Shown here one piece after another: positions 2,939-54,500 of a stretch of DNA of 64,000 bases. The notes below the pieces were generated by a model. The model made no database searches and was not told the origin of the DNA. It saw only the letters and a list, made by a program, of their open reading frames with translations. Within the stretch, counting starts at the first letter, position 1; each line of letters begins with the position of its first letter. The stretch is from Rhododendron vialii (lineage: Eukaryota > Streptophyta > Magnoliopsida > Ericales > Ericaceae): NCBI RefSeq assembly GCF_030253575.1, contig NC_080561.1, forward strand, positions 1,926,001 to 1,990,000. The letters run 5' to 3'. The translations under genes were made by a program, and so were the position numbers.

Positions 2939-5900
2939 ATGGACCCAGAAATCGCAGCCCTAAGACGCCTCTCCGAAAACTTCGACTCGGCTCTCAGCTC
3001 GGACTTCGCCGACGCCGTGATCGCCGTCGCCTGCGGCCGAGAAATCCCAATCCACCGCTGCATTCTGTCGGCGCGGAGTCCGTTTTTCAAAAACATATTC
3101 TCAGGCACAGAGGGGGGGCTAAAAGTGGAACTGAAGGATTTGGCGAGGGATTTCGAGGTGAGCTTTCACGCTTTGGTTACTGTCTTGGTGTTCCTGTACA
3201 GCGGGAGAGTGAGGTCTTTGCGTCCGGACGGTGTCTGCGTTTGCGTCGACGACGAGTGCGAGCACGTCGCGTGCCGGCCCGCCGTGGATTTCGCGGTGGA
3301 GGTGCTCTACGCTTCTTTCGTTTTCGAGATACCGGAATTGGTTGCTCTTTATCAGGTATATATATATATTGGCCCCTGTTTATTAGCTTGTTTGAGTGGC
3401 GGAGCCAGGATTCAAGTTCGGGGGTGTCGAATATTGAATCGATCACCCCTTGATAATAACAAACTATGTTTAACATTCGCAAAGGTATATGTGTTCTAAT
3501 GTCAGAGTTTCACTGTGAATTATTTTGGAGATTTAAGGCTAAAATGTACAATAGAAGATAAGATGAGAGTGAAGAGAAAGATGAAAGAGAGCTAGATGCA
3601 AGCAGTGTTCTAAAAGTTGCTAGGCACTAGTCGGGCGGAAGAGGGACAACTAGTCAGCCAACCAGCTACCTAGGCCGCCGACTTTATCTATGCGTTGGAC
3701 CATGCATGCCTAGTGCCTAGGGGCCGACGCTTAGACCGATTTTTAGAACAAAGGATACAAGCAGTCAATTACTATTTTCTTTTTTGAGAACCGGGGGCCA
3801 CCCCGCCCCCCTCTTTACCTCTGCCCCTGAATTTAACCTTGCTTGTTTCATTTTCCAATAGATTGTAACTGTTCTGTTGGTTGATAGGCTATTTTGATCA
3901 TTGTATAATCTCGTAGTTCCTGTTAATTAGCTTGAAAAGCAATTTATAAGACCAGCCTTCACTCGAATTTGTCTTAGTTTGAGTATAAATTCTAGTACAA
4001 GCTTCATTTGGTATTAAGCACTTCAATGGGCAAGGCAAGCCAAGATCTAATCAGTAATACGAGTAAAAGCTTCATTGATTCCAAGAGTGGTAAATTAGAC
4101 CACAGGCAAGCCTTGAAAATTTTGAGTGATGAAAAGAGTCTCACGAGTTGGGAAAAGAAAATGAGTAAAACTCGAGTTGATGTGATTTGAGAGATGGACT
4201 AGAGAAGGATATGGGAGATCTGTTGCAACTCACATTTAACTTTTCAGTCAAAATTTACGCGAGGACTGGAGATGTTGACCATCTTTTTTTCACCCAATTA
4301 ATGTCCACTATGTAAATCTCATCCAATTGAGGATAATCATATACTGCTTTGTGACAAGCTGTTTTACCATTATTGTCCTGTAGTTGCTTATCGTTCCTTA
4401 GTGTGCAAGGTCTACTGAGCTCGAGAATGTCTGTATATGGTTGTGTGCACAATATACAGACAAAGAGAAAGCGAAGATAAATTATTGTTGTGCTGTTTCA
4501 AGTTAACAATAATTTAAACACGACTGAAGCCATGTACTGTAGCTTATGGCGCAGAACTATTAAAGAGTAATCTGGAATTTTGAAGTGATTGCTGGATTAA
4601 TTGATGAAGGTAATATAAATCATTGAGATACATCATACATTTGAATTTACGTACTCATATGGCGTTAGACCTACACATAACAAACACGTGGAAGATTTAC
4701 ACATGACGCCAAACAAATTGATCGCACAGCAGAAAGATACCATATAGCTTAAGATACACTAATCCATGGCATTTGGGCTCTATTGGCATTTACGTATGGA
4801 TCTTATCATTATTGATACAATTTTGAGAATCCTAATTACTATGCTTAAATCAGATGAGTTTGTGTTACTCATCTGTAGATGTTTTCTCAACATTTACATT
4901 TTATTAATGAATCTGCATAAGATGGATGTATTTGTATATGTGTGGTGATATACCTGGTTGTTCTATCTATGTTGCAATGACGATGATGTGACAACTGTTG
5001 TCTTCCATTTATCTGAAACCATCATATAATGAAGCAGATTGGCACAAGAATCAGTTTGAGAAATCCAACTGCATCTAAATAGAGATATCAGCTTCTATTA
5101 GAGAGTGAACACTGTCACTCATTTCTTTTCTGAACTCATTGTTCGTTTCCTTGCAGGGGCACCTATTTGATATTCTTGACAAGATTGCAGCAGATGACAT
5201 TTTGGTGGTTCTTTCTCTGGCAAATATTTGTGGTAAGGAATGTGATGGACTGCTTACCAGATGCGTTGAGAATATAGTCAGGTCCGATGTTGATATCGTA
5301 ACTCTTGATAAAACCTTGCCCGGTCATATTGTCAACCGAATTGTTGAATCCCGCAAGGAACTTGGCTTCCATGGTCCTGAAAGCAGCAGTTTCCCTGATA
5401 AGCATGTGAAAAGACTACACAGGGCTCTGGATTCTCATGATGTAGAATTAGTCAGAATGCTTATAAAAGAGGAGCATACCAGCATAGATGATGCATGTGC
5501 CCTTCACTATGCTGTGGCATATTGTGATGCAAAGATCATAGCGGGGATTCTTGACCTTGCAATTGCTGATGTTAACCACACAAGCCCAAGGGGTTACACA
5601 GTGCTTCACATTGCTGCTATGCGAAAAGAACCTAAGATTATAGTGTCTCTTCTAACAAAGGGAGCCCAACCAGCTGCTCTCACATCAGATGGTAGAAAAG
5701 CACTTACGATTTCAAAGAGGCTCACAAGGGCTGCGGATTACTACAAGTCTACTGAGCGAGGAAAAGCATCTCCCAAGGATCGGCTGTGCATAGAGATATT
5801 GGAGCTAGCAGAAAGCAGAGATCCATTATTAGGAGAAGCTTCTGCTTCTCTTGCTAAGGCAGAAGATTATCTGCGAATGAAGGCGTTGTACCTTGAAGGT

Positions 5901-7749
5901 AGAGGTAAGTTATTCTTATCTCTTAAGTATTTCTCTTCTGTTTCTATGGTAGAGTCATGTTAACTTTACCATTATTTTCTATATCAGCACATTCTTCCTT
6001 CTACTACGGGAAGCTCCTAGCCATTTCATTTCCATTTTCTGCACTATATCTGCCACATTGCAAACTTACTATGTTCTTTACCATTTTGATCTAGGAAGCA
6101 CCGAGACTTGTGAAATTTTGGAAAGAAAATCACGTTTGTTGTTCCTTTTAGAAACACTAAGATCTTACTATGTAGTCCACTGTCCAGCTCCACAAAGCAC
6201 ACAGTAAGATGTTACAGGACAATGGGCTGCCTAGTAAGATCTTACTGAAAGGAAAATGGTTCTTCGGAATTTTACATCCAAAGGGGTTCTGTTTCGAAGA
6301 TCCCGGAAAGACATTCCAAAAATGAGAACTTCAAGTTGTAGTTTGTGTGTATTCCTTTCCTTCTCCCAGTGGAGTGAAGGGGTTTAGAAATAACTTAGGA
6401 ACTGTTAAAAGAAATTGGGGAGCAATTCATCAGGCTAATTGGAATAGTCCATCTTTTGTGCTATCATGAGATCAAGCAGATTGAAAACTTCTCTTGATGT
6501 AGAATCACATGGTAGTTTTGAATTTCTTGAGCATCATGATATACTTGTTTCTGGTTAAACATGATATACTTGTTTCTGGTTAAACCAGATAATCATCAGC
6601 CAGCTTACTGTGAAAATTGATTTATTAAGAATTGATTGATTATTCTCAGTTGCTTTAGCAAAAGTTCTCTTTCCAACGGAAGCAAATGTGGCAATGGATG
6701 TTGCTCAAGTGGATGGCACTTCTGAACATCTCAATAGGATAAGGGCACTCGCCAAAACTGGTATGGATACTTCTGTGTGTGTGTGCGTGGACAGAATTGT
6801 TATTCTATATCTTAATACTGAATGTACAATCAGTTTTTCTTTAGGGGGGATAAGACATGTACTTGTATCGCACTCGAATAAGGGGTGAAGATTATAGAGC
6901 TCAGTTGGAGAAGTTTGATGTCCAATTGTGCAGTTCTATTTTAGAATTCTAGAGAATATTTCTCCAGTAATTTGACTTTATGGATGCTCTGACAAGTAAG
7001 GGAAAAGTTACAGGCACTGACTCTGATCAAAATTTTATCAAACAAGAACAAAATGTGTGGGTCTCGCGCACCCGATATGTGGTGTTTGGAACACTTGGGT
7101 GGAGACTTTAGTGTTCCCGGAAAACCTGCTCATATTTTGATAGTACCAAGACACATTTTCTACCAAGCTCCAGTGTTGATTTCTCCTGCGTTATAACCAA
7201 CTTCATTTAGATATGAAGTCTTATGGGACCTGAAGAAAAAGAAATCTCTTAGATTTTGTTTTGGAATAGTATGTTTGTCAGATTCTCATGATCGTTCAGA
7301 ATAATTTGTTTTGATGCCAAAAAAAAAAACCCCATTTCCATACGATATAGTGCTTTTGGAGTTATCGACCATTACAACACACGACACACTGGTGTAACCA
7401 CATTGTGATTTATCATTCGTAACATTTTGGAATTTAAAGTGCCTTTGTTTGTGTTTTAATATGAGCAGTGGAACTAGGGAAGCTCTTCTTCCCTCGTTGT
7501 TCAGAAGTGATCAACGACATAGTGGATGACGATGATTTGTCAGAACTATTATGCTTACAAAACGGACCTCGAGAAGAGCGCCAATTGAAGAAGCGACGAT
7601 TCATGGAAATCCAAGAAGCTTTTTCTAAGGCATTCCACGAGGATAAAGAGGAGTTGGACAACAAGTCTATCAACATATCTTCTTCATCGAGAGATTCAAG
7701 ACCCGTAAGAGGGGTTGGGAGGCCTAACGGTAAACTCCCTCTCAAGTGA
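2939..7749 (+). CDS. NPR3/NPR4-clade salicylic acid co-receptor, copy A
   Basis: Exons are 2939-3355, 5157-5904, 6650-6760 and 7469-7749; all joins are GT-AG and the frame is open for 518 residues. The order is BTB/POZ (about 18-100), zinc-binding C102/C107/H109/C112, ankyrin repeats (about 220-330) and the NPR1-like C-terminal domain. Residues such as [16 protein letters not shown] and [14 protein letters not shown] place it in the NPR3/NPR4 clade. Family members bind salicylic acid, act as CUL3 adaptors and contact TGA factors in the nucleus. The arginine matching NPR1 R432 is present (LEGR). Family proteins are usually near 590 residues. This one starts about 50 residues late and lacks about 30-35 residues after VDGTSE, the stretch that holds the EAR-like motif. 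Exon 2 opens with G where copy B and NPR1 have R. The start was chosen because MDPEIAALRRLSENFDSA aligns with the helix preceding the NPR1 BTB. Confidence 0.93.
3394..3831. mobile_element. hAT-type nonautonomous element fragment in intron 1 of copy A
   Basis: The left end reads AGTGGCGGAGCCAGG and the right end CCTCTGCCCCTG, resembling the CAGGGGCGGAGCC termini of common plant hAT MITEs. It is absent from intron 1 of copy B. A clean 8-bp target duplication is not visible, so the ends are approximate. Confidence 0.45.
4607..4681. repeat. 75-bp segment inverted relative to copy B
   Basis: This part of intron 1 matches the reverse complement of 16539-16613 in intron 1 of copy B (shared GAGATACATCAT and ACTCATATGGC blocks), while the flanking intron sequence is collinear. 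It is a microinversion between the paralogues. Confidence 0.8.
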
Positions 7750-12422: not shown

Positions 12423-15173
12423 ATGAAAATGAAAACAAAATGCTCCTCTTGTCCAAATATCAATCGCGAAACCACCTCCTACACCAATTTCCTCACCGTA
12501 GTCCACGACGACGATCCCATCCTCAACAAGCGCCCGAAAACTGACCACGACAGCAGCCACGACGACAACGACACCATCCTCAACAAGCGCCGGAAAATTG
12601 ACCGCGACAGCAGCGATGCGGAGGCCTCCGAAACGAACGAGAATTACAAAACAATTGACGCCCAGGGGGATCAGAAGGACCAAACCCTACCCAAATGGCC
12701 TCCGAGCACAAGTGGGTCCGACGCTAATAACGATTCCGTCGGGTCAAGCCAATTTAGCGGCGGCGGCGGAGGAGAACGGCAGTTCGAACTTGTTTTAATC
12801 GCCGGTGGCCGAGAAGTGAAAGCCAACCGGTGCATTCTGTCGGAGCGGAGTCCCTTTTTCAAGAACCTTTTGTGCGGCGAAGAGAGAAGGGTGAGGTTGG
12901 ACCTGAAGGATTTTGCCAAGGATTTCGATGTGAGCTTCGACGCTTTGGTTCCTGTTTTGGCCTATTTGTACAGTGGGAAAGTGAGTTCGTTGCGGCCGGA
13001 AGGTGCTCACGTTTGCGCCGACGACGAGTGCGAGCATGTCGCGTGCCGGCCGGTGGTGGATTTCTTGGTGGGGGTGGTTTACGCTTCTTTCGTTTTCCAG
13101 ATACCGGAATTGGTTGCTCGTTATCAGGTTTAGCTTTTGTTTCACGCTCTGTTTGGTACCTATGGAAAATTTATTGTTCAATAAGCCTTTGATTATTTTC
13201 TTCTATTTTCCCTCTCAAACCAAACAAAGAAAGAGCAAAATATTTTATTTTCCTCTCCTTTCCTTGCTTTTTCGTAGGTACCAAACAAACCCAGTTTTCA
13301 ATGGATTGTTCTTGTTCTATTAGAGCATTAATAATGGTTTAATTAAAATTGAATAACCAAAAGTTACGTAATATTTTGGTTATCCATTTAAAAAATTGCT
13401 AAGATTAACAATTTATAGGTACACAATAGCATAATTAAAATTCGATAATCAAAATATGCCACAACCCCTTTCAAACTACAAAAACTAAAAATCGTGAATA
13501 GAAAACAAGTTTTTTTAAAACAGTTTTCAAACTAATGAAAACTGTTTATTAGAAATAGAAAACAGTTTTTCAATAGAGAGTATTGTTATAGGTACCGACA
13601 GCCGGTGTAGGGAAATCGTACCGACGGCCGCGCTAGGCTGTCTCCGGCCACTGGACGGCCGATCCGAGCCGTCCAAAAATTCTATAAAAAAAAAACGAGG
13701 GGGCCAACGGGGGAATTTTTTAGAATTTTTGGACGGCCAGACAGCCCGGCGCGGTCGTCGGTACGATTTCCCTACACTGGCTGTCGGTACTCATATCATT
13801 TTCGTTTTCAAAAACACTTTCTAATAAACAGTTTTTCAAAATCAGTTTTTGAAAAAAAGAAATCAGTTAATTGGCTTTTTAAAAAAAAAAAACAGAAAAC
13901 AGTTTTTGAATGAAACAAAACAGTTTTGTGTAAAAACAGTTTTTAGAAAAAAAGTTGTGTAAATACTTGTTTTGAATTACAGAAATGCTAAGGGTACAGC
14001 AAATCCCGTACAACAGTCGCGCACAGATTCATTTTGCTCCCGTCTCGGGTCTCACAAAGATGATCGGAGCCGCTTATTTTGTTCAATATATATCGTTTAG
14101 GGTCTCTGTAAAATTTCATCTTAATCCGATACCGGTAAGGGCGTTTACGAATTATACAACTTTGCTTCAGAATTTGGCCTGAATTTCTGAAGCAAAGTTG
14201 GATGATTCGTGATGAAGAAATTTAATGGTTCTACTAAAAACGAGGAATTTTTTTTATCATGTCTTTTAATTTCTAGTCTAAATATTTATTCATAGTTTTT
14301 AGTGTCATTTGGTCATTCGAAGAGTCATTGAGTCATTCAAGGAGTCTACCTAGTTTTCTGTAGTCAAAGTAATTGTTTTCATTTAATTCTAGCTTCGAAA
14401 ATCTAAGTTTATTTTTCATATGCTTGGAGGGATGTTCCAAGTGTGCCTATAAATTAGGTTGCTATGAATGAAATCTGGAGAGTGTGTTTGAATTAAAATA
14501 GCCTTTGGCTTGTGAGAAGATAATTCTTCTTGTAACTCTTATCCTTCGGTGGATTCCGATAGGTGGCGAGTTTCCCCGTTTCTGTATCTCTTAGGTGGAT
14601 TCCTTCGAGTGGTCTCTAGTTAAATCCTCGGGTGGTGATATCTTATCCAGGGCCGGCTCAAGTCTTTCGGGGGCCGGAAGCGCACTTCGAAAATGAGACC
14701 TTTATGCATTTTTCTACTCCTTCCGCCCCAATTTGTTTGTTCAATATTTGACTTTTACTTGTCCTAAAATGTTTGTCCACTTTAAAAGACCAAGGGATCA
14801 AAGGCTACAAAATTCCCTCTTTGTCTCTTACCATATGAACTAAAGTAATTTTCTTCAAAAAGTTTGGAGGGCAACTTTTGGAAAGTTGATCATTTATTGG
14901 TACAATGATTGTATTTCCTTAAAAAATTGTATTTCCCAAATTGGACAAACAAATTGAGACTGAGGGAATAATATTAAAATAAATCAAAATAGCAAATTCG
15001 AAACAAATAAAGAATATGTATTTGTTATGGAATACGCCTTATTTTCTTTCTTTTTGTTAATGCTTCAATGTTTCTAATGAGTAATTTCACAATTTAGGCT
15101 TATTTTAATTGTGGTTCCTAAATTTCAATTGGGCCTATTTTGTGTAAAGGAAACTAATGCAATTTTTTTTGGA

Positions 15174-15257
<84 letters not shown>

Positions 15258-18200
15258 ATCCTAAAAATTTGGGGCCCCTCGTTTTTATTTTTTCCCGGGG
15301 GCCGGAAGCGCCGGCTTCCCCGACCTTGGCTATAAGCCGGCTCTGATCTTATCCCGTTGGTTCCTTAACTTGGGTGGTGAGCTTTACCCGATTATCCATT
15401 TTTATCTTACTTCCGTCCCGTCTGAAAAATCCGGCGTCAATTCGTAAATGCCTGTACCGGTATCAGATTGAGATGATTTTTTACAGAGACCCTAAACAAT
15501 ATATTAAGAACAAAATGAGCGGCTCCGATCATCTTTGTGAGACTTGAGATGGGCGCAAAATAAATCTGTACGCGGCTGCTGTACGTGGGTTGCTGTACCT
15601 GTAGCACAACTGTTTGAATTACTCGGCAGCTCCATTTCAAATATATCTTAGTTTGAGTACAGATTCTAGCTTCATTTGATATTACGCAGGGCGAGGCAAA
15701 CCTAGATTTAATCCTTGACATGAGTAAAAAGCATCATTAAGAGTGGTAATTACATGGCCATAGGCAAGCCTTGAAAACTTTTGAGTCAGGAAAAGAGTCT
15801 CCCACGAGCTGGGAAAAGAAAACGAGAGAAACTCTAGTAAAAACTTCGTTTGATATTAAAAGCGCTCCAATGGGCAAACCTTGATTTAATCATCGATGAG
15901 TAAAAGCTCCATTTGAGCCAAGAGTGGTAAATTATAAGGCCAGAGGCAAATCTTGAAAATTTTGAGTAAAGAAAAGAGTGTCCCTTGAGTTGGGAAAAGA
16001 AAACAAGTAAAACTCTAATTGATGCGATTTTGAGACGGAGTGGAGAACGATATGGGAGATTCTATTGGACTGGAGATGCTATTGCAGTCGAGATTTACGC
16101 ATGGACTGGAGATGCTATTGCAGTATTGACCTTGTTTTTCACCCAATACATGTCCAATATACGATATCTCATCAAACTGAGGATAATCATATACTGATGT
16201 GTGACAAGCTGTTTTACCATTATTGCCCGGTAGTTGCTTATGGTTCCTTAGTGTGCAAGGTCGACTGAGCTTGAGAATGTCTGTAGATAGTTGTGTGCAC
16301 GGTACTAAGCTATCCTTTGTGATAGAGACAAAGCAAAGAGAAATATCGTTGTGCTGTTTCAAGTTTCCAATAGTTTAAACACAACTGAATCCATGTATTG
16401 CAAGGTGTGGCACATAACTATTAAAGAGTAACCTGGAACTTTGAAGTGATTTCTGGATTAATTGGTGAAGGCTGTCATTTTCATCACTTGTCCACTTCGC
16501 TTGGATTTTGCAGTTCAAAAAAAATCTTCTACTTGCTTGTTATTTGTAGGTCAAATGCCATATGAGTATGTAAATTCATATGCATGATGTATCTCCATGA
16601 CTTTTATTACCTTCACACCGCACATGCCACCGAACAAATTGGTAGCACAACTTAAAGATAGCATATTGCTTAAGATACACTAATTATGGCATTTGGGCTC
16701 TCTTGTCATTTACGTATGGATCTTATCACTCTTGATACAAGTCAGAGAATCCTAATCACCATGCTTAAATCAGACGAGTTTGTGTTACTCATCTGTAGAA
16801 GTCTTTTCAATATTTACATTTCATTAATAAATCTGCAAAGGATGGATGTATTTGAATCTGTGCGCTGATACCTAGTTGTTCTATATTCGTTGTAATCACT
16901 ATCATGTGACAATTGTTGTCTTCCATATATCTGAAATCAGTATGTACTGAAGGAGATTGGCACAAGAATCAGTTTGAGAAATCCAACTGCATCCAAATAG
17001 AGATATCAGCTCTATTAGAGAGTGCACACTGTGACACTGTCACTCATTTCTTTTCTGAATTCATTGTTTATTTCCTTGCAGAGGCACCTATTAGATATTC
17101 TTGACAAGATCGCAGCAGATGACATTTTAGTGGTTCTTTCTCTAGCAAATATTTGTGGTAAGGAATGTGATGGACTGCTTACCAGATGCATTGAGAATAT
17201 AGTCAGGTCTGATGTTGATATCATAACTCTTGATAGAACCTTGCCCGGCCATATTGTCAACCGAATTGTTGATTCCCGCAAGGAACTTGGCTTCTATGGT
17301 CCTGAAAGCAGCGGTTTCCCTGATAAGCATGTGAAAAGACTACGTAGGGCTCTGGATTCTCATGACGTAGAATTAGTCAGAATGCTTGTAAAAGAGGAGC
17401 ATACTAGTATAGATGATGCATGTGCCCTCCACTATGCTGTTGCATATTGTGATGCAAAGATCATAATGGGAATTCTTGATCTTGCAATTGCTGATGTTAA
17501 CCACAAAAGCCCAAGGGGTTACACAGTGCTTCACATTGCTGCTATGCGAAAAGAACCTAAGATTATAGTGTCTCTTCTAACAAAGGGAGCCCAACCAGCT
17601 GCTCTCACATCAGATGGTAGAAAAGCACTTACGATTTCAAAGAGGCTCACAAGGGCTGCGGATTACAACAAGTCTATTGAGCAAGGAAAAGCATCTCCCA
17701 AGGATCGGCTGTGCATAGAGATATTGGAGCAAGCAGAACGAAGAGATCCATTAGTAGGAGAAGCTTCTGCTTCTCATGCTAAGGCAGAAGATGATCTACG
17801 AATGAAAGAGTCGTACCTTGAAGGTAGAGGTAAGTTATTCTTGTCTCTCAAGTCCTTCTCTTCTGTTTCTATGGTAGATGCATGTTACCTTCACCATCAG
17901 CACATTCTTCCTTCTACTACGAGAAGCTCCTAGCCATTTCATTGCCATTTTCTGCACCTATATCTGCCACATTGCAAACTTACTATGTTCATTTACCATC
18001 TTGATCTAAGAAGCACCGACACTTGAATATGAAATTTTGGAAAAAAAATCACATTTGTTGGTCGTTTTACAAACACTGAGATCTTACTATGTAGTCCACT
18101 GTCCAGCTCGACAAAGCACGCAGTAAGATGTTACGGGGACAATGGGCTGCTGCATAGTAAGATCTTACTGAAAGGAAAATGGTTCTTCGGAATTTTACAT

Positions 18201-21200
18201 CCAAAGGGGTTCTGTTTCGAAGATCTCAGAAAGACATTCCGAAAATGAGAACTTCAAGTGGTAGTCAGTATGTAGTCCTTTTCCTCTCCCAGTGGAGTGA
18301 GGGGTTTAGAAATAACTAGGCACTATTAAAAGAAATTGGGGAACAATTCATCCTGCTAATAGGAATAGTCCATCTTTTGTGCCATCATGAAATCAAGCAG
18401 ATAGAATATTTTTTTGATGTAGAATCACATGGTAGTTTTGAATTTCTTTAGGATCATGATATACTTACTGTTTCTTGTTAAACCAGATACGTAATCATCA
18501 ACCAGCTTACTGAGAAGATTGATTTATTAAGTAATTGATTGATTATTCTCAGTTGCTTTAGCAAAACTTCTCTTTCCCACGGAAGCAAATGTGGCAATGG
18601 ATGTTGCTCAAGTGGATGGCACTTCTGAACATCTCAGTAGGATAAGGGCACTCGCCAAAACTGGTATGGTTACTCCGTGATTATGTTTTTTCGCGATTGA
18701 TGGACATATATGGATGAAATATATGTCTATACATATATATACGTGTGTTTGTGTGTGTGGACAGAATTACTAAAAACAATGGAAATGAATGCTAGCTAGT
18801 ATACCAAAATTCTTTTTGAAAACATGTTTGCAAAAATTATACTATGTAACCTGTGGAACTCCAGCTCATGAGAAAGTTGAAAGTGAAAGAAACTGCCCAA
18901 GCACCCAACCAATTCACTAGCACCACCAAGCTCCCAGCAACACCCTTCACATGTATTGGGAATATCTACCAAAGGAAGACAATGAATGCGATTCATTATA
19001 TAAATTCCCTGAGTTTTCCACTTTATAATAGTCTCAAGTAAACATAGATTAATTCTGGAGCCTGAAATTAACGGCCGGACAAAGCTCCAGCGGCCCCAAT
19101 GTTGGATTGTTTGGCCTCCGTGAAATTCGAATTTGCAACCTCTTAAGGGGCAAGCTTTGTATTTACTTGTTCATGCCACTTAGCCAGACTTCTTGAAATT
19201 TCCGTTACACATGTATTGGTGACATGCATCCATTATGGGATATTGAAACTGTTGTTTGATCCCAAGTGTTCTACTAGGAACCAATCAAGGAAATTCAGTC
19301 TTCTGTTTTGACTTTGGAGGTTTGAAGTTATTACCTCAGACATGATAACCCAAGGAACTGCTCCCATTCCAATTGAGAATGATGCAACATAGACCTGGTG
19401 TCATTAAGGGAGGAGAACACGTTAGCTAGGCACGGTACTTCAAAAAAATGTCACTGTCATATCATTCAGATTAAATATTCTCTACAAAAGATCGAACGGG
19501 TAAAGAAATGTTCTTTTCTCAACTTACCAATACTCCGGAGACCGCCAATATTGGAACCCATCCAAGCAATAAACTTTGCCCCTTATTTTCATGATAAAAA
19601 AAACAAAAACTAATAATCAATATCAACTTCGGTGGGGGAGGATTAAAGTTTTTAGTAATTGGCAATTGATTCTTAATGTACAAGAAATTTTCCAAATACG
19701 GGGGATAAGACGTGTATTTTTACCCCAGTGGGATAAGGGGTAAGATTAGAGCTCAGGTAGAAACTTTAGTGTCCCCCGAAAACCTGCTCATATTTTGATA
19801 GTATCAAGACACATTTTCTACCAAGCTCCAGTGTTGGTTTTGTTGGTGCAAAAACTGGAACCTTCAAAATCTAGAGCCTTCTGCAACTTGAACAATCTGA
19901 TGGAAACCGCTTCGAGTCACGTTACGATGTCGCTTTCCGAAAACAGTATTCGCCCCCACCAATTGGTGTGCGCCGGGTTACAGCGAATCTGTTCTGAGGA
20001 TAAAACAAAGCCCGATCAACGATCTTCTGCTTGCGTCCGCACAAACGAAGGACAGACAGAATACCGAGCCTAAGAGAATCAATTGAACCAAGGACTGTTA
20101 ATTCCGTTTCTGCAGAATAACGAAATAACAGCGTAGAAAACAACGAGTCAGAGAGAGGGAGAGTTTCTGGATATTTTTTTGGTGTATTGAATGACTTAAC
20201 CATTGGCCTATTTATAGACTTATAGGCACCCTTACGTGAAAGGATGTGTCTTTAGTAAATACACATTAGAAAGGATATGTCTTTTGAAGACAAATAATCA
20301 AGAGAAAGGATCATGCCTTTTAGTAGGCACCCTTTCATGAAAATAATTAATTAGGAAAGGTCATGCCTCTTAGAAGCACCCTCATGTATCACATCCCTTC
20401 CTAACAATCACACTCCATTCTAATAATCACACCCTAAGTTAATAGGTGTTGTACCTATTCATATAAAGTCATACCCCATGTGAAAAGGTGTCGCACCTTT
20501 TCACAAATAACCTCCCGCAATCTTTTATTTTATTTTGAAAAAATCTCCAACAGATTTATCCTGCATTATCATCATATTCTTTGAGATATGAAGTCTGGAA
20601 ATATTTATTCATAGATGTGCATATAAGTCACGTACAACTGTGTCATATGGGTCGCCTGAAGAAAAAAATTCTCATAGATTTTGTTTGGAATAGTATTTTT
20701 ATCAGATTCTCATGATCATTCAGAATAATTTGTTTTGATGCAAAAAACAAAAGCAATTTTCATACGGTATAGTTTTTTGTGTTACCAACCATTACAACCC
20801 ACAACACTGATGTAATCGCATTGTGATTTATCATCGTAACATTTAGGTTGTGTCTTATATGAGCAGTGGAACTAGGGAAACGCTTCTTCCCTCGGTGTTC
20901 AGAAGTGATCAACGACATGGTGGATCACGATGATTTGTCAGAACTATTATACGTACAGAACGGAACTCGAGAAGAGCGCCAATTGAAGAAGCGACGATAC
21001 ATGGAAATCCAAGAAGCTTTTGCTAAGGCGTTCCATGAGGATAAAGAGGAGTTGGACAAGTCTATCAACATACCATCTTCATCGAGACCCCTAAGAGGGG
21101 TTGGGAGGCCCAACGGTAAAGAGGAGTTGGACAAGTCTATCAACATATCATCTTCATCAAGACCTGTAAGGGGGGTTGGGAGGCTTAACAGTAAACTCCC

Positions 21201-21213
21201 TCTCAAGAAATAA
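12423..21213 (+). CDS. NPR3/NPR4-clade salicylic acid co-receptor, copy B
   Basis: Exons are 12423-13127, 17082-17829, 18553-18663 and 20867-21213, all GT-AG, giving 636 residues. Exons 2 and 3 have exactly the lengths of copy A (748 and 111). The first ~115 residues are acidic, basic and glycine-rich, unlike the family, with two repeats of [13 protein letters not shown] / [13 protein letters not shown] that look like nuclear localisation signals. The BTB domain follows; its HRC motif reads NRC. The zinc ligands [11 protein letters not shown], the ankyrin repeats and the C-terminal domain are intact. It shares with copy A the loss of the segment after VDGTSE. Exon 4 carries an in-frame 75-bp tandem duplication, so the tail has two [10 protein letters not shown] units. 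Intron 1 is 3.95 kb because of nested insertions. The start at 12423 is the first ATG of the open frame; an internal start before the BTB is not available in frame. Confidence 0.9.
13146..13291. mobile_element. Small foldback MITE in intron 1 of copy B
   Basis: The ends TTTGGTACCTATGGAAAA and TTTTCGTAGGTACCAAA are inverted complements. The interior is AT-rich without coding capacity. Confidence 0.55.
13591..13790. mobile_element. 200-bp GC-rich foldback MITE
   Basis: The first 40 bases (starting GGTACCGACAGCCGGTGTAG) are nearly the reverse complement of the last 40 (ending CACTGGCTGTCGGTAC). It lies between further AAACAGTTTTT repeats (13500-13580, 13800-13960) that are themselves inverted, so the whole 13.5-13.96 kb stretch could fold as a nested hairpin. 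Confidence 0.75.
14717..14968. mobile_element. Stowaway MITE nested in the hAT element
   Basis: The ends CTCCTTCCGCCCCAATTTG and CAAATTGAGACTGAGGGA-A are complementary and are flanked by TA on both sides, the target of Tc1/mariner-type Stowaway elements. Confidence 0.8.
15174..15254. repeat. (CA)n(TA)n microsatellite
   Basis: A run of about 24 CA units is followed by about 16 TA units. Confidence 0.95.
15665..16025. repeat. ~175-bp tandem duplication in intron 1 of copy B
   Basis: 15670-15840 and 15846-16020 are two units related to the single unit at about 3995-4185 in intron 1 of copy A (shared CTTGAAAA...TTTTGAGT, GAAAAGAGT and GTTGGGAAAAGAAAA blocks). A second, 33-bp duplication (GACTGGAGATGCTATTGCAG) lies at about 16070-16120. 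Confidence 0.8.
19832..20552. mobile_element. LTR-like insertion in intron 3 of copy B
   Basis: This 0.72-kb block interrupts sequence that is continuous in intron 3 of copy A. It opens with TGTTGG and closes with CCAACA and includes a TATTTATAGA promoter-like motif, as in a solo LTR. Relatives lie at about 22670-23440. It has no coding part and looks like an old fossil that postdates the gene duplication or was lost from copy A. Family not determined. Confidence 0.5.
21043..21192 (+). repeat. 75-bp in-frame tandem duplication in exon 4 of copy B
   Basis: Units 21043-21117 and 21118-21192 each encode 25 residues that begin [10 protein letters not shown] and end RGVGR plus two residues. Copy A has a single unit. 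The units differ at several bases, so the duplication is not an assembly artefact of identical reads. Confidence 0.9.
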
Positions 21214-25936: not shown

Positions 25937-27688
25937 TTAAACACACCCCACTTGCTCCTCCAAATCCCTCCCATAGCCGATCCACTCCGGCGACTTAGCA
26001 AGCAAATTCTCCAACTCAAGCACCATTTTGGACTGATGATGTGCAAGCTCAGCTTCCACTTGCTCGTCACTCTCACAAATCATTTCATCCTGAAGCAGCT
26101 TCTCCCACAAGATAAAGTTCTCGGGCCCCGAATCGGACCTATGAAATCCAGGATCAGTTTTGACATTGGCCTTTTGTTCTTCATTAGGACTCCCATAATC
26201 ATCCAATGAACCAGAAAACGGTGCGCTCACTTCTGATTGTACTGTTGCCAGTTCCTCCTGATTTTGCCCCTTCCCATTTGCTTTTTCCCCATTGCCAGTA
26301 GCATCCATGGCTTCCACCGCGTTCTCATTGCTTCCCGGGGCAACTAATCTCCTTTTCTTCGCGACTTGGCCATCAGGGAGATTTCTTTTATGCCTCAGAA
26401 GCTGGACAAATTGGTTAAGAAACACTGGGTTCGCGAATGCTTTGGCCAAAAACACAAATATCTGCTGTTGCTTACACTCGGTGTTTTCGATTCTCTGCTT
26501 GATACCAGCCAAGCAACTATCTGCACTCTCTTGCTGTTGTTTCAGCTCGACAATTTCTGTTTCCATTTTGTTTCGATCGTCCCTAAGCTTTTCAAGCTCG
26601 GTCTCCATGCAGAACAGTGGACCGTCAGACAAAGGTCTCATTGGTCCTTGTTGATGCGAATTTTGAAGGTTTTGCTTCCTCCTCTTAATGTGCTTCAGCA
26701 AATGCTTCTTCCCTCCTTGAAACCCTTGGTTTGCGAATTCCCATCTGTCCGAATCGATCTTCTTGAAACCCTTTGAAAATTATATCCCAGAAACAAGAAA
26801 TACAGAGCAAGTTAATTAGTACCACCATCACATACCACTATCCGAAAATTCAAGAAAATGTTCAAATAGTTCTTTTAGACACTAAACCAAACAGAACCCA
26901 AACAAAACCCACAAAGCATAAATCTGAAATTGATAGGGTTTTTTTATCCAAACAAAAAAACTCATCCTCTACGATTAGACTCTATTCCACGTCACTCGTC
27001 TAAACCACCCAAACTTTGTTACCATATTCTAGAGATTACTCATCTATTCTCGATTGGTTTTAGGTTGGAACCTAGAAATCTAGCAATCTATTATTTGATA
27101 CAGAACCCAACAAAAACCACAAAGCTTCAACAAAACTGACCAACGGATCGATTGGAGTAATTCATATGTTTGTATACACAATAAAATCCTACCAATGCAA
27201 AACAAGCAAAACCCATATGCTATAAACCTCAATTCTACGATTACGATACAAGAATGAAGCATTTCAGTACTCACATAAGTGTTGAGCTGGCGAATGAAGC
27301 TGGAGAAGTTATTGTGCTTGAAGTACTTTTGCAGAAGAGTGCTGGAGAACTCGTGCTGATCCCAAACTACGAAGCTTTTCTTGGCGAAGCCCCACGAAAT
27401 GATCCCATCAGTTTCTGGGTCTTCAACCATCTGGTACGTCTTCTTCAGAAACGGTGGAGGTCCTACTTCATGGAGCCCCTCCATGGGCGCCGGGACCGAC
27501 ACCGGCGAAGCAGGAAAACACCCACCGGCAGTTTCACCTCCCATATGATCAGTTTCACCGTCTAGCAGAATCTCTGGCTCTTCTTTAACCATGGCGATTT
27601 TCACTCCATTTTCCCCGTACAAAAAATCCCCTCCGCCGCCGATCCCACGGCCTTCTTCATCAGCCATATTGATATTCTGCTCCTCCAT
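25937..27688 (-). CDS. Class A heat stress transcription factor (HSFA9/A2-like)
   Basis: Exon 1 is 27688-27275 and exon 2 26770-25937, joined in phase 0 at the conserved HSF intron inside the DNA-binding domain (NTY|GFKKI); the protein is 415 residues. The order is an acidic N-terminus with VKEEPE, the DNA-binding domain (about 77-170, [30 protein letters not shown]), the HR-A/B coiled coil (about 193-262), KKRR as nuclear localisation signal at 276-279, an AHA-type activator motif [12 protein letters not shown] (357-368) and a leucine-containing C-terminal export-like stretch. The insertion length in HR-A/B and the AHA motif indicate class [13 protein letters not shown]-like and [15 protein letters not shown] wording resembles HSFA9, while the C-terminal part also resembles HSFA2; I cannot separate these here. 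It would bind heat shock elements in the nucleus and activate chaperone genes such as the one at 32225. Confidence 0.93.
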
Positions 27689-27745
27689 AGTTAGAGTTTG
27701 GATATTTGCAAAGAGAGGGAGGGATTGGGATTAGTTTCCAAATGG

Positions 27746-31949: not shown

Positions 31950-32105
31950 ACCGCTTAATCACAATCACCACGTACGTGGCTCCTTGACCATGAACTATGA
32001 AGGGGATCAATATCCATTACCACATTACACCACCGTGGCTCTCTGGCCTACGAACGCGTCTCCTTCTCTATGAACATGTCCATTTGGATTTTTCCTTCTT
32101 CGAGC
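31950..32105 (+). promoter_or_regulatory. Proximal upstream module 3 of the sHSP gene
   Basis: It contains the palindrome CCACGTACGTGG overlapping ACGTGGC (31974-31980), then TTGACC, ATGAACTATGAAGGGGATCA and GTCCATTTGGATTTTTCC, ending about 120 bases before the start codon. No perfect heat shock element (three alternating GAA/TTC units) was found by eye. Confidence 0.6.
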
Positions 32106-32224
32106 TTTACTTAAAAGAGAGCCAAATTGTCCTGTCTCTCACTGGGCTCTCAAGAACCAAAACTAGTTCTTACAGTAGCTTTTCTTTTCTTTTCAAACCA
32201 TCTTGCACTAAAACAGTACTGAAA

Positions 32225-32941
32225 ATGGAACTGGCATTGAGGGACATGGGACTGGACGCATCAGTGATGGCGGCAATCCACGACATGTTAGACTTCTCCG
32301 ACGACACACCCACCTCCGAGAGGTCCCGCCATGGGCCGTCGCGAGCCTTTGTTCGCGACAACAAGGCGATAAAGAACACGGCGGCCGACATCTTGGAGTA
32401 CCCCAACTCGTACGTTTTCATCGTGGACATGCCGGGGGTGGGGCCGGACCAGATCAAGGTCCAGGTGGAGGACGAGAACGTGCTGGTCGTGAGCGGGGAG
32501 CGGAGGAGGGAGAAAGAGCGGGAGCAAAAGGAAGGGGTCAAGTACGTGAGGATGGAGAGGAGGCAGGGGAAGTTTTTGAAGAAGTTCGAGTTGCCTGAGG
32601 ACGCGGACCTGGAGTCGATACAGGCGAATTATCAGGACGGGGTGCTTACGATAACTGTGGAGAAGAAGCAGAAACCGGAGCAGAAGAGGCCGAGGACGAT
32701 TGAGGTCAAGGTTGGTGGGTCAGGACAAGCTCAGGTTGGTGGAGGCGGTGGTGGTCAGGACGCAGCCTTTGGTGATGCCGAAGACCGCGCCTTCGGTGAA
32801 GTGAAAGAGCAGCAGCAGCAGCAGCAGGGGGTTGATCAGTCGTCGGGAGCTCAGGGGGGTGGATCTGGTGAAGTGAAAGAGCAGCAGCAGGGGGTTGATC
32901 AGTCGTCGGGAGCTCAGGGGGGTGGAACTGGTGAAATCTGA
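32225..32941 (+). CDS. Cytosolic class II small heat shock protein with extended tail
   Basis: A single exon encodes 238 residues. The N-terminus (ALRDMGLDASVMAAIHDMLD, TPTSERSRHGPSRAFVRDNK) and the alpha-crystallin domain (about 50-150: AADILEYPNSYVFIVDMPGV, KFLKKFELPEDADLESIQAN, DGVLTITVEK) are typical of class II sHSPs, ATP-independent holdases in the cytosol. Class II proteins usually end after KRPRTIEVKV at about 155-165 residues. Here about 70 extra residues follow, rich in G and Q, including two tandem units GEVKEQQQ(QQQ)GVDQSSGAQGGG. The gene is strikingly GC-rich at third positions compared with its AT-rich surroundings. The start was chosen at 32225 because the family begins at this position; the frame is open upstream to 31997 but that part is promoter repeat. 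Confidence 0.95.
   Translation: MELALRDMGLDASVMAAIHDMLDFSDDTPTSERSRHGPSRAFVRDNKAIKNTAADILEYPNSYVFIVDMPGVGPDQIKVQVEDENVLVVSGERRREKEREQKEGVKYVRMERRQGKFLKKFELPEDADLESIQANYQDGVLTITVEKKQKPEQKRPRTIEVKVGGSGQAQVGGGGGGQDAAFGDAEDRAFGEVKEQQQQQQGVDQSSGAQGGGSGEVKEQQQGVDQSSGAQGGGTGEI
32795..32929 (+). repeat. Two in-frame minisatellite units in the sHSP tail
   Basis: Unit 1 (32795-32866, 72 bases) and unit 2 (32867-32929, 63 bases) are almost identical and differ by three CAG codons and the final codon. Confidence 0.95.
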
Positions 32942-51501: not shown

Positions 51502-54500
51502 TCACTGTGACATGTCAGCTACCACTCTCCTCACGGCTTCTTGGAAGGCAGATTCGTCCCATTCACCTCCCTAAGTGCGCACAAAGGAATCAAGAGGAAA
51601 AAAAGTCATTGCTTTTGATAGAAATCTAAAGTGATTACTACTTTTAACTACTAACTAAGGCATGTAAACTAAAGCAGCCATCCGTTATTGAAAGGGGGGA
51701 GATGCATGAGGAAATATAGAGAGAACAAGTTGAATAATTCAACTTGAATTCAATGGACAGAGTCCACAATTTGTTGGATTTAGCTAGAGCAAATCTCTAC
51801 GGATTTTCTGAAGAGATTTGACCAAAACAAATTAAAGAAGAAGTATTCACCGAGATATTTGAGTTATGAAAACTTTTAGTGATATATCTAGGAGATTCTA
51901 GAGTTATTTTTTATTTTTTGTAATTCCACTTGTTTTGGCAGGATTTTGTTACCTTTTTAGTTTTGGTTAGATTTTACTAAATTTTAGTTTAGATTACGAT
52001 ATTTATTACGTAATTTGATTCCTACCTAAATTAGGATTTCTCTAAACCCTCCTTGGGAATTCATTCAATCAATAGATAAAATTCAGAGTTCTTTCATTAT
52101 TCGATTCTCTGTGCGCAAGGTATTTATCTTCTCTTGTGGATTCAAGACTTCGTTTGTTAGAATGATCAATGTATTTCTAACCCATTCATCTACTCAAAAC
52201 AATATCTAGTTCTTCCGCTACGTCGCTGCGTCAATTTAACTAGGTCAGTCGATGGTTACCATCAACATTAATTGTTCCATATTTCCAAGGGACGGGTTTA
52301 CAAAATTCATAACCAAAAGTCAAAATATTGTATGCATTGTGAAATGAAAAGATGACAATCAAAAACATTATTCTGTAGGGTATGTGTAAATATTATGTTT
52401 GTATGGATCGTCGCGTCTCCGAATTCTGTTATCTAAATGTTGCTCTATTCAATGCAATTATTCTACTAGCTTTTATCAACCAGAATTTTAAAAATCTTTT
52501 GTGGGTATTTTTGTAATTTCACATTCAATTTATTACCTTTCGCATAATTAGTCTTCAGACAATTTGTTTTTAGCTTGTGTTTTGTACTTACTAGACTAGA
52601 AGTCCAAAATAAAACTAGTAAAGTGAACCAAAGCTAAGTAGAATTAGAGTCAATGAAAAGTGCTATAATACCATACCTCAATTCTCAATCTCAACCTCAC
52701 AATGTTGATAGGATTTGAATCAACCACTTGGGCATCTGCCTCCACAGACAATAAGCTCGCATTCTCAACTCGTCTCAAAAATTCCAGTATCCTGGTCACC
52801 AAATCCATCACATTGCATTCTCCACTCAAAACCACTTGCAGCCCAATAATACGGGCTTGTGATGTTGATTCGGCTTCGTGTGTGATCCGAACATCTAGCC
52901 TTTGATCTGGGGAGAGACTCACTTCTTGATCATGATCTTTTTTTTTAGCCAAAAGTTGTACTCTCTCTTCCAAATCTCTATTTCTTTTATTAAGCTCTTC
53001 GACTTGTGCTTTCAAAGAAGCTAAGTAGTCCGTCGTGCTAGCAAGCACCGATGCCTTGTCTTTCTAGACAAATCGGCAACGAAGATTTCATCAGTGTGTG
53101 TTTACTTAAAAGATGATGACTCAAAAAGAAAATTTATACATAGTGTGATATGAGTCACAATGCGATAGTAGTTTTAGTATGATACAAAGCATAAAATGCA
53201 TCCTACTCTCACGTAGTGATGCTATCTTATCTTCCTCTCAAACTATTGTACTTCTTTCATTATTAATGTAATCCCTTTTTTGCCGTTCAAAAAAAAAATT
53301 ATGTATATTATAACAAATTTGTAGTAGAAAGTTGATCATATGTGTAGTACCTTTGTTCCCGGAGGAAGAAGTGATCTCAATGCTTGAAAGCTCTCATTAA
53401 GTTTCTCTCTCCTCTTTCTCTCAGATATCATGTGGTGCAGCTGAGTGCTTGACATGGGTCGGCTTCCTTGCGCTCGTCCTTGGATTCTCATCAAACTCAA
53501 GCTTCTAAAGAACGTGATTGCTCGTTTCTGGATGTTCGGCTTTCTAACTCCAGCCGTAATAGTCATGGTTGAAGGGCCTAAAGCTGATCGAAATCTCTTG
53601 AATGCACTTGGCTTTTGGCTTGTGCCGGCTTCTGTCGTTGTTGTTGCTGTGGTTTCGGGTGTAGGGAATTGAATAGAGGGGAATTGGATGAAGGCTTGGG
53701 GAAGAGGACTAGTTGAGCTAGATAAAGGTCTCACTACTTGGCCAATATTGGAAGGTTCGATGGGTGGTCCTAGGAGAGAGGAAGGGGTACTTGGGATGTT
53801 GAATAGGAAGGGCGACGCCTCGGGACTGCCCATGGATAGTGATCTCAAAGAGGATGAAGACGATGAGGGCCGGGGTTGATCCGTTGGAGGGAGCTCTATC
53901 GGTGGTACTGCTAATTGTCGAGAGAAATCGTCTGGGAACCAGCTCCTCATCTCCATTTCCAAGTTAACCTCCAAAATCAAAGTTTTGCATACGTACAGAA
54001 ACGATCAATCTTGCCTAATAAACCACAAAATGGACTTCTAGCAGCAATATATTCATTTTGCATTAGAGTAATAAGCTCTATGTATTCAGAATATATGAAT
54101 ATATTGTATGCTCTCTTTGTTTGATTAGCAATAAAAAAATTTATTAGAAACTCGACAAAGAGTACATCGAGAAAGCAAAAAGAAGGATATAACACCCGGA
54201 TCATAATGTTGATACATGAAGAAAAGAGTGAAAGACCAAGAAGAAAAACAAAGAGAAAAACATTCAAAACCTCAAAACTCTTTTTCCACCGAACCCAAAA
54301 TAGCCCTTTCAAGAAACCCACTAGAGTTAGGCCTTACAAAAATTGCAAAACCCGCAGCAAATATAACCGGAAGAATCGATCCAAAGCCATATAAAAACCT
54401 CAAGGCATAAACGAATATATTGTCCGCGCACTTTTTATCATCTATTCTATAAGAATCTCATGTACGTAGCAGAACCAAGTAACAAAGAATATAGTTCAAT

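Follow-up and report, generated by a model that had tools for sequence, protein, structure and literature searches.

The described proteins closest to the genes considered here are NPR1 (chains 7mk2, 7tac and 9zjn) and NPR3/NPR4 (NPR4 chain 6wpg), the NPR1 and NPR4 chains being presumably those of Arabidopsis. In the NPR4 chain, one loop of the salicylate-binding core carries the motif VDLNETP, and we take DLNxxP to be the EAR pattern. Repression by NPR3 and NPR4 has been reported to depend on VDLNETP (PMC6381062), which has been described as an EAR motif (PMC12058309). A passage in a review, citing the NPR4 structure paper, gives the EAR motif as missing only from the NPR1 of Brassicaceae and not from the NPR1 of other lineages (PMC11062473), so that the best-studied NPR1 may not represent other plants in this respect.

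A man-made shortening of the same loop is found in PDB chain 9zm5, which was built for structural work by fusing the NPR1 salicylate-binding region to maltodextrin-binding protein, and in which GSGSG between EF and FRILEEH replaces most of the loop. In Ericales, the kiwifruit gene AeNPR1a has been described as an NPR1-clade member that has LENRV and lacks a counterpart of Cys156, in a report that also deals with the roles of the NPR1 cysteines (PMC7524898). LENRV has been placed at residues 429-433 of NPR1 in work that describes the NIMIN-binding region (PMC3624081).

Here we consider two tandem genes, A and B, in a window of 64,000 nt (the whole stretch of DNA that was analysed) of Rhododendron vialii NC_080561.1, in which this loop is absent. 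An original prediction had read them as NPR3/NPR4-like genes without the C-terminal segment that bears the repression motif; it can now be said with high confidence that A and B share an in-frame deletion and that they belong with NPR1.

Gene models and related copies

The models of A and B were built from the sequence; in both genes GT follows exons 1-3, AG precedes exons 2-4 and there are zero internal stops. When the whole genome was searched with the NPR1 C-terminal family, 13 matches to exons were obtained, distributed over five loci: A, B, the full-length gene C, a fragment D and gene N. In the following list, plain positions are those of the window and the prefix C5 marks positions on the chromosome that carries it.

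2939-7749, plus strand: gene A, 4 exons, 518 residues
2939-3355, plus strand: A exon 1, encoding the BTB domain and its Cys/His set; begins MDPEI
4700-6771, plus strand: candidate conversion tract in A, reaching from the 3' portion of intron 1 to a little beyond exon 3; 89.9% identity with B 16621-18674
5157-5904, plus strand: A exon 2, encoding the ankyrin repeats and the first part of the salicylate-binding core; last residues LEGR (LENR in C)
6650-6760, plus strand: A exon 3, 111 bp against 204 bp in C; bears the 93-bp in-frame deletion
6722-6726, plus strand: A deletion junction, TGA microhomology, four equivalent breakpoints
7469-7749, plus strand: A exon 4, basic stretch QLKKRR, then stop
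12423-21213, plus strand: gene B, 4 exons, 636 residues
12423-13127, plus strand: B exon 1, about 110 foreign N-terminal residues fused in frame to the BTB domain
17082-17829, plus strand: B exon 2
18553-18663, plus strand: B exon 3, 111 bp, with the 93-bp deletion as in A
18625-18629, plus strand: B deletion junction, breakpoints as in A
20867-21213, plus strand: B exon 4, in-frame tandem repeat near the C-terminus
C5:1883659-1891025: gene C, full-length tandem paralogue of 584 residues, ending some 35 kb before the window starts
C5:1889495-1889698: C exon 3, 204 bp
C5:1901342-1902865: fragment D, intron 3, exon 4 (about C5:1902404) and 3' flank
Contig 13, 17240532-17245595, minus strand: gene N, 586 residues, NPR3/4-type, VDLNETP intact

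Both A and B score above the Pfam cut-offs for BTB, Ank_2 and NPR1_like_C, the last of which matches in two stretches in A and B and in one stretch in C and N; DUF3420 falls under its cut-off in B. The order BTB, ankyrin, NPR1_like_C is that of the NPR1 chains, and the domain order and loop position also agree with those of NPR3/NPR4. The first 33 residues of C have no counterpart in A, whose 5' flank, compared from window position 1501, fails to align with that of C. B's BTB domain is without the block that opens the BTB exon in A and C, and its residues 1 to about 110 (window 12423-12798) resemble the N-terminal part of a DDE_Tnp_4 gene nearby (about 36% identity), which points to a chimeric frame; the DDE_Tnp_4 genes near B are presumably of the kind labelled ALP1/Harbinger-like. 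The four main pieces of fragment D are 91-97% identical to C, no exons 1-3 were found beside it, and a scrap of exon 1 with a stop lies in the same array as A, B, C and D.

The 93-bp deletion and the lost loop

Exon 3 measures 111 bp in A and B against 204 bp in C, so that 93 bp, or 31 codons, are missing in frame, and cutting 93 bases from C exon 3 leaves a sequence that differs from A at 9 positions and from B at 8. Owing to a 3-bp TGA microhomology there are four equivalent breakpoints, after exon-3 bases 73-76, and these are identical in A and B. Where C reads VDGTSE-FTLASINSKNMVGAQRITMDLNDAPFKIKDE-HLNRIRALSKT, VDGTSE is joined directly to the second block in A and B. The deletion is confirmed as real, contiguous, in frame and common to both copies, just as the original prediction had it; the junctions that it gave (6726/6727 and 18629/18630) fall at the codon boundary, one base beyond the breakpoints at 6722-6726 and 18625-18629. 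A random deletion has a one-in-three chance of staying in frame. The MAFFT alignment over exon 3 and intron 3 misplaced the gap, and its exon-3 and intron-3 divergences were excluded.

An extra exon that might supply the segment, raised earlier as a way in which the loss could prove apparent, was not found in the 108-kb array or in a genome search of the best candidates. The 90 bases wholly inside the lost stretch have a single genome match, C, in that search, which scored the best candidates only; the joined 108-kb array otherwise holds chance-level words of 10-14 bases (E >= 1.7), with the remaining protein-level matches at E >= 0.2. An assembly error is unlikely, as one and the same loss would have to be produced in two copies that share the junction despite different flanks.

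The loss takes out the position of the EAR-like motif, as had been claimed: the counterpart of the NPR1 loop there holds MDLNDAP in C, presumably of the DLNxxP type, and VDLNETP in N and the NPR4 chain, and A and B have neither. MDLNDAP in C fits the statement in the review that NPR1 outside Brassicaceae has an EAR motif (PMC11062473). The NPR1 chains, like A and B, are without DLNxxP in the loop; there, however, the loop is full-length with a changed motif, whereas in A and B the loop itself is lost. Chain 9zm5 is shortened at the same site and between the same blocks as A and B, but it keeps the F, FRILEE and a five-residue linker, none of which A and B keep; they have lost about 7 residues beyond it, the F and FKIKDE (the FRILEE counterpart), and no linker is left.

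NPR1 or NPR3/NPR4

Over aligned residues, identity to the NPR1 chain is 52.3% for A (265/507), 52.9% for C and 41.2% for N (220/534). Within the core covered by the NPR4 chain, identity to NPR4 is 48.2% for A, 53.6% for B, 50.0% for C and 51.5% for N, and in that region identity alone fails to separate the clades. A tree of six sequences (A, B, C, N, NPR1 and the NPR4 core) sets N with NPR4 against A, B and C with NPR1 at 100% support, and both remaining topologies have AU p < 0.001. When a BOP-like frame from contig 3 was included as outgroup, the seven-sequence tree again joined A, B and C to NPR1 (99%), with alternative roots at AU p 0.019 and 0.046, the latter still within the c-ELW set; in the free seven-sequence tree it was the outgroup, and not N, that the short NPR4 fragment joined. 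By the six- and seven-sequence trees, A, B and C are assigned to the NPR1 clade and N is the genome's NPR3/4-type gene. The NPR3/NPR4-like label must be given up for the window genes, which stand in a separate clade from NPR3/NPR4 and are not members, and the notion of NPR3/4 co-receptors unable to repress does not follow, because A and B group with NPR1.

Duplication and gene conversion

The synonymous divergence between A and B is 0.385 in exon 1, 0.097 in exon 2, 0.038 (one difference) in exon 3 and 0.163 in exon 4, and between A and C the corresponding values are 0.566, 0.143, 0.122 and 0.382. Exon 1 differs from exon 2 in divergence at p = 8e-5 for A-B and p = 7e-6 for A-C; for A-B, exon 1 against exon 4 falls short of significance (p = 0.063). 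Just upstream of the tract at 4700-6771, intron 1 of A and B is 79% alike. A natural reading is that the exon 2-3 tract was homogenised by gene conversion, an uneven mutation rate being an alternative source of the uneven divergence. Since the deletion lies inside this tract, its inheritance from before the duplication and its later spread are indistinguishable, and the earlier statement that the loss is older than the duplication of A and B is not established.

Conserved residues and selection

The alignment shows that A and B have kept the BTB Cys/His set, residues corresponding to Cys82, Cys216 and R432 of NPR1, and the block FFPRCS, which we take to lie within the NIMIN-binding region. The R432 arginine is retained in both copies, as the original prediction stated, but its context is LEGRV; at this place LENRV is found in C, N and the NPR1 chain, and LEKRV in the NPR4 chain. 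In being without a Cys156 counterpart, A, B and C resemble AeNPR1a as described, which differs from A and B in its LENRV (PMC7524898). Among the 210 positions at which N equals the NPR1 chain, A has 17 changes, B 18 and C 8 (8 unique to A, 9 to B and 8 to C; 7 shared by A and B with an identical residue, and 2 at which A and B differ from each other), so that A and B have drifted from conserved residues about twice as far as C.

The A-B dN/dS is 0.46 from the BTB domain onward and 0.43 over exons 2-4 (Fisher p = 0.002). Crude branch estimates of omega, with C as outgroup, are 0.34 (p = 0.013) for exon 1 and 0.50 (p = 0.049) for exons 2-4 on the A branch, the latter just under neutral; 0.95 and 0.28 (p = 0.002) on the B branch; and 0.09 and 0.45 from C to the A/B ancestor. 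As far as such estimates go, B's BTB exon shows no constraint on the B branch, and selection on A and B appears to be purifying on average, with frames intact. Indels between A and B are absent from exon 2 and come only in multiples of three in exon 4 (3, 9 and 75), as against 12 of mixed lengths in intron 2. When A exon 4 was folded alone the mean pLDDT was 71.8, and a search of solved structures with this fold returned none at E <= 0.001 and 19 at E <= 10; no conclusion is based on it.

What the shortened genes may do

The reading that we propose, tentative as a whole, starts from what is shown: A and B are tandem genes of the NPR1 clade, kin of gene C, which is full-length and lies on the same chromosome, and they share one 93-bp in-frame deletion with microhomology at a single breakpoint. 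It took away the stretch linking two blocks of the salicylate-binding core, together with a DLNxxP-type EAR motif. The deletion would have been inherited by A and B, or copied between them by gene conversion, and at least A would encode an EAR-less NPR1-type coactivator. With its BTB Cys/His set, ankyrin repeats, R432 equivalent and FFPRCS, A could meet TGA factors and perhaps salicylate. A parallel may be seen in the NPR1 of Brassicaceae, where the loop is there and the motif gone. Confidence in the statement as a whole is slightly lowered by the changes at conserved residues, which are about twice as numerous in A and B as in C.

These copies may encode an EAR-less NPR1 or a dominant-negative protein, or may be genes in decay. 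For at least A, the EAR-less coactivator seems the most likely of these, if still tentatively so, because the frames are open, the splice borders standard, dN/dS below neutral and the exonic indels frame-keeping, and also because the 9zm5 binding region carries a GSGSG-replaced loop and NPR1 outside Brassicaceae is stated in the review to have the EAR motif (PMC11062473). The loss of about 7 residues beyond 9zm5, the missing linker and LEGRV speak against it. The further loss and LEGRV would fit an NPR1 that is dominant negative or blind to salicylate, with altered folding of the core, as the original prediction also suggested: with FKIKDE gone and LEGRV present the core would no longer fold, while A's BTB and ankyrin parts would go on dimerising and occupying TGA factors. 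The review has it that this domain folds and docks in response to salicylate (PMC11062473). The remaining core blocks are kept, however, and NPR4 itself has K at the position of the N-to-G change, and such a dominant-negative product appears unlikely. The version first put forward, of NPR3/NPR4 genes minus a VDLNETP repression motif, had the position right, with VDLNETP found there in N and the NPR4 chain, and is favoured by the failure of NPR4-core identity to part the clades, but it runs against both trees, where the alternatives to N with NPR4 and A, B and C with NPR1 are rejected, and is highly improbable.

A more serious contender, doubtful though it is, holds that an unstable tandem array gave rise to A and B as by-products that are now decaying. 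The deletion and the changed N-termini would then be steps towards loss of function, and the low dN/dS a relic of a time when the genes still worked or of homogenisation with C. Fragment D and the exon-1 scrap with its stop lie in the same array; B's N-terminus is foreign and its BTB exon neutral on its own branch; A's compared 5' flank is unalignable to that of C; and changes at conserved positions are about twice as many in A and B as in C. The state of B's exon 1, the flank of A and the conserved-site changes also count against an EAR-less coactivator, as do the lack in A of the first 33 residues of C and the omega of A exons 2-4, just under neutral. On the other side, neither copy has a stop or frameshift, although this is weak alone (64 neutral changes would leave the frame free of stops with a probability of about 0.07), and evolution is slower than neutral in exon 1 of A and in exons 2-4 of B.

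If at least A is an EAR-less coactivator, an EAR-plus and an EAR-minus NPR1 would stand side by side, by which the role of the motif and the core's need for the loop can be tested. The fuller claim, that NPR1 here lost the EAR motif independently and by deletion, with an EAR-bearing copy adjoining, and that the shortened copies are de-repressed coactivators, the deletion having passed between them by gene conversion, seems rather unlikely; if true, it would provide a natural pair showing whether the EAR motif restrains transcription in ordinary NPR1. If A and B are silent, the case becomes one of routine tandem-array decay. In the literature library used, a search for Rhododendron, NPR1 and tandem duplication found no joint paper, and among the matches listed none was named as a study of Rhododendron NPR1 genes, neither of which is proof of absence in print.

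Other features of the array and window

Mutually related frames lie between the NPR1 copies at about C5 1892107-1893846, 1904128-1904844, 1911018-1911968 and 1922098-1923744. They look as if duplicated along with the NPR1 copies, and the first, the sole one tested against Pfam, is DDE_Tnp_4. Copia-like retroelement frames were seen by eye between C and D (about C5 1895309-1899267, minus strand). Elsewhere in the window, frames match an HSF DNA-binding domain (27083-27730, minus strand), an HSP20 protein (31994-32938, plus strand) and a helix-loop-helix protein (53339-54004, minus strand).
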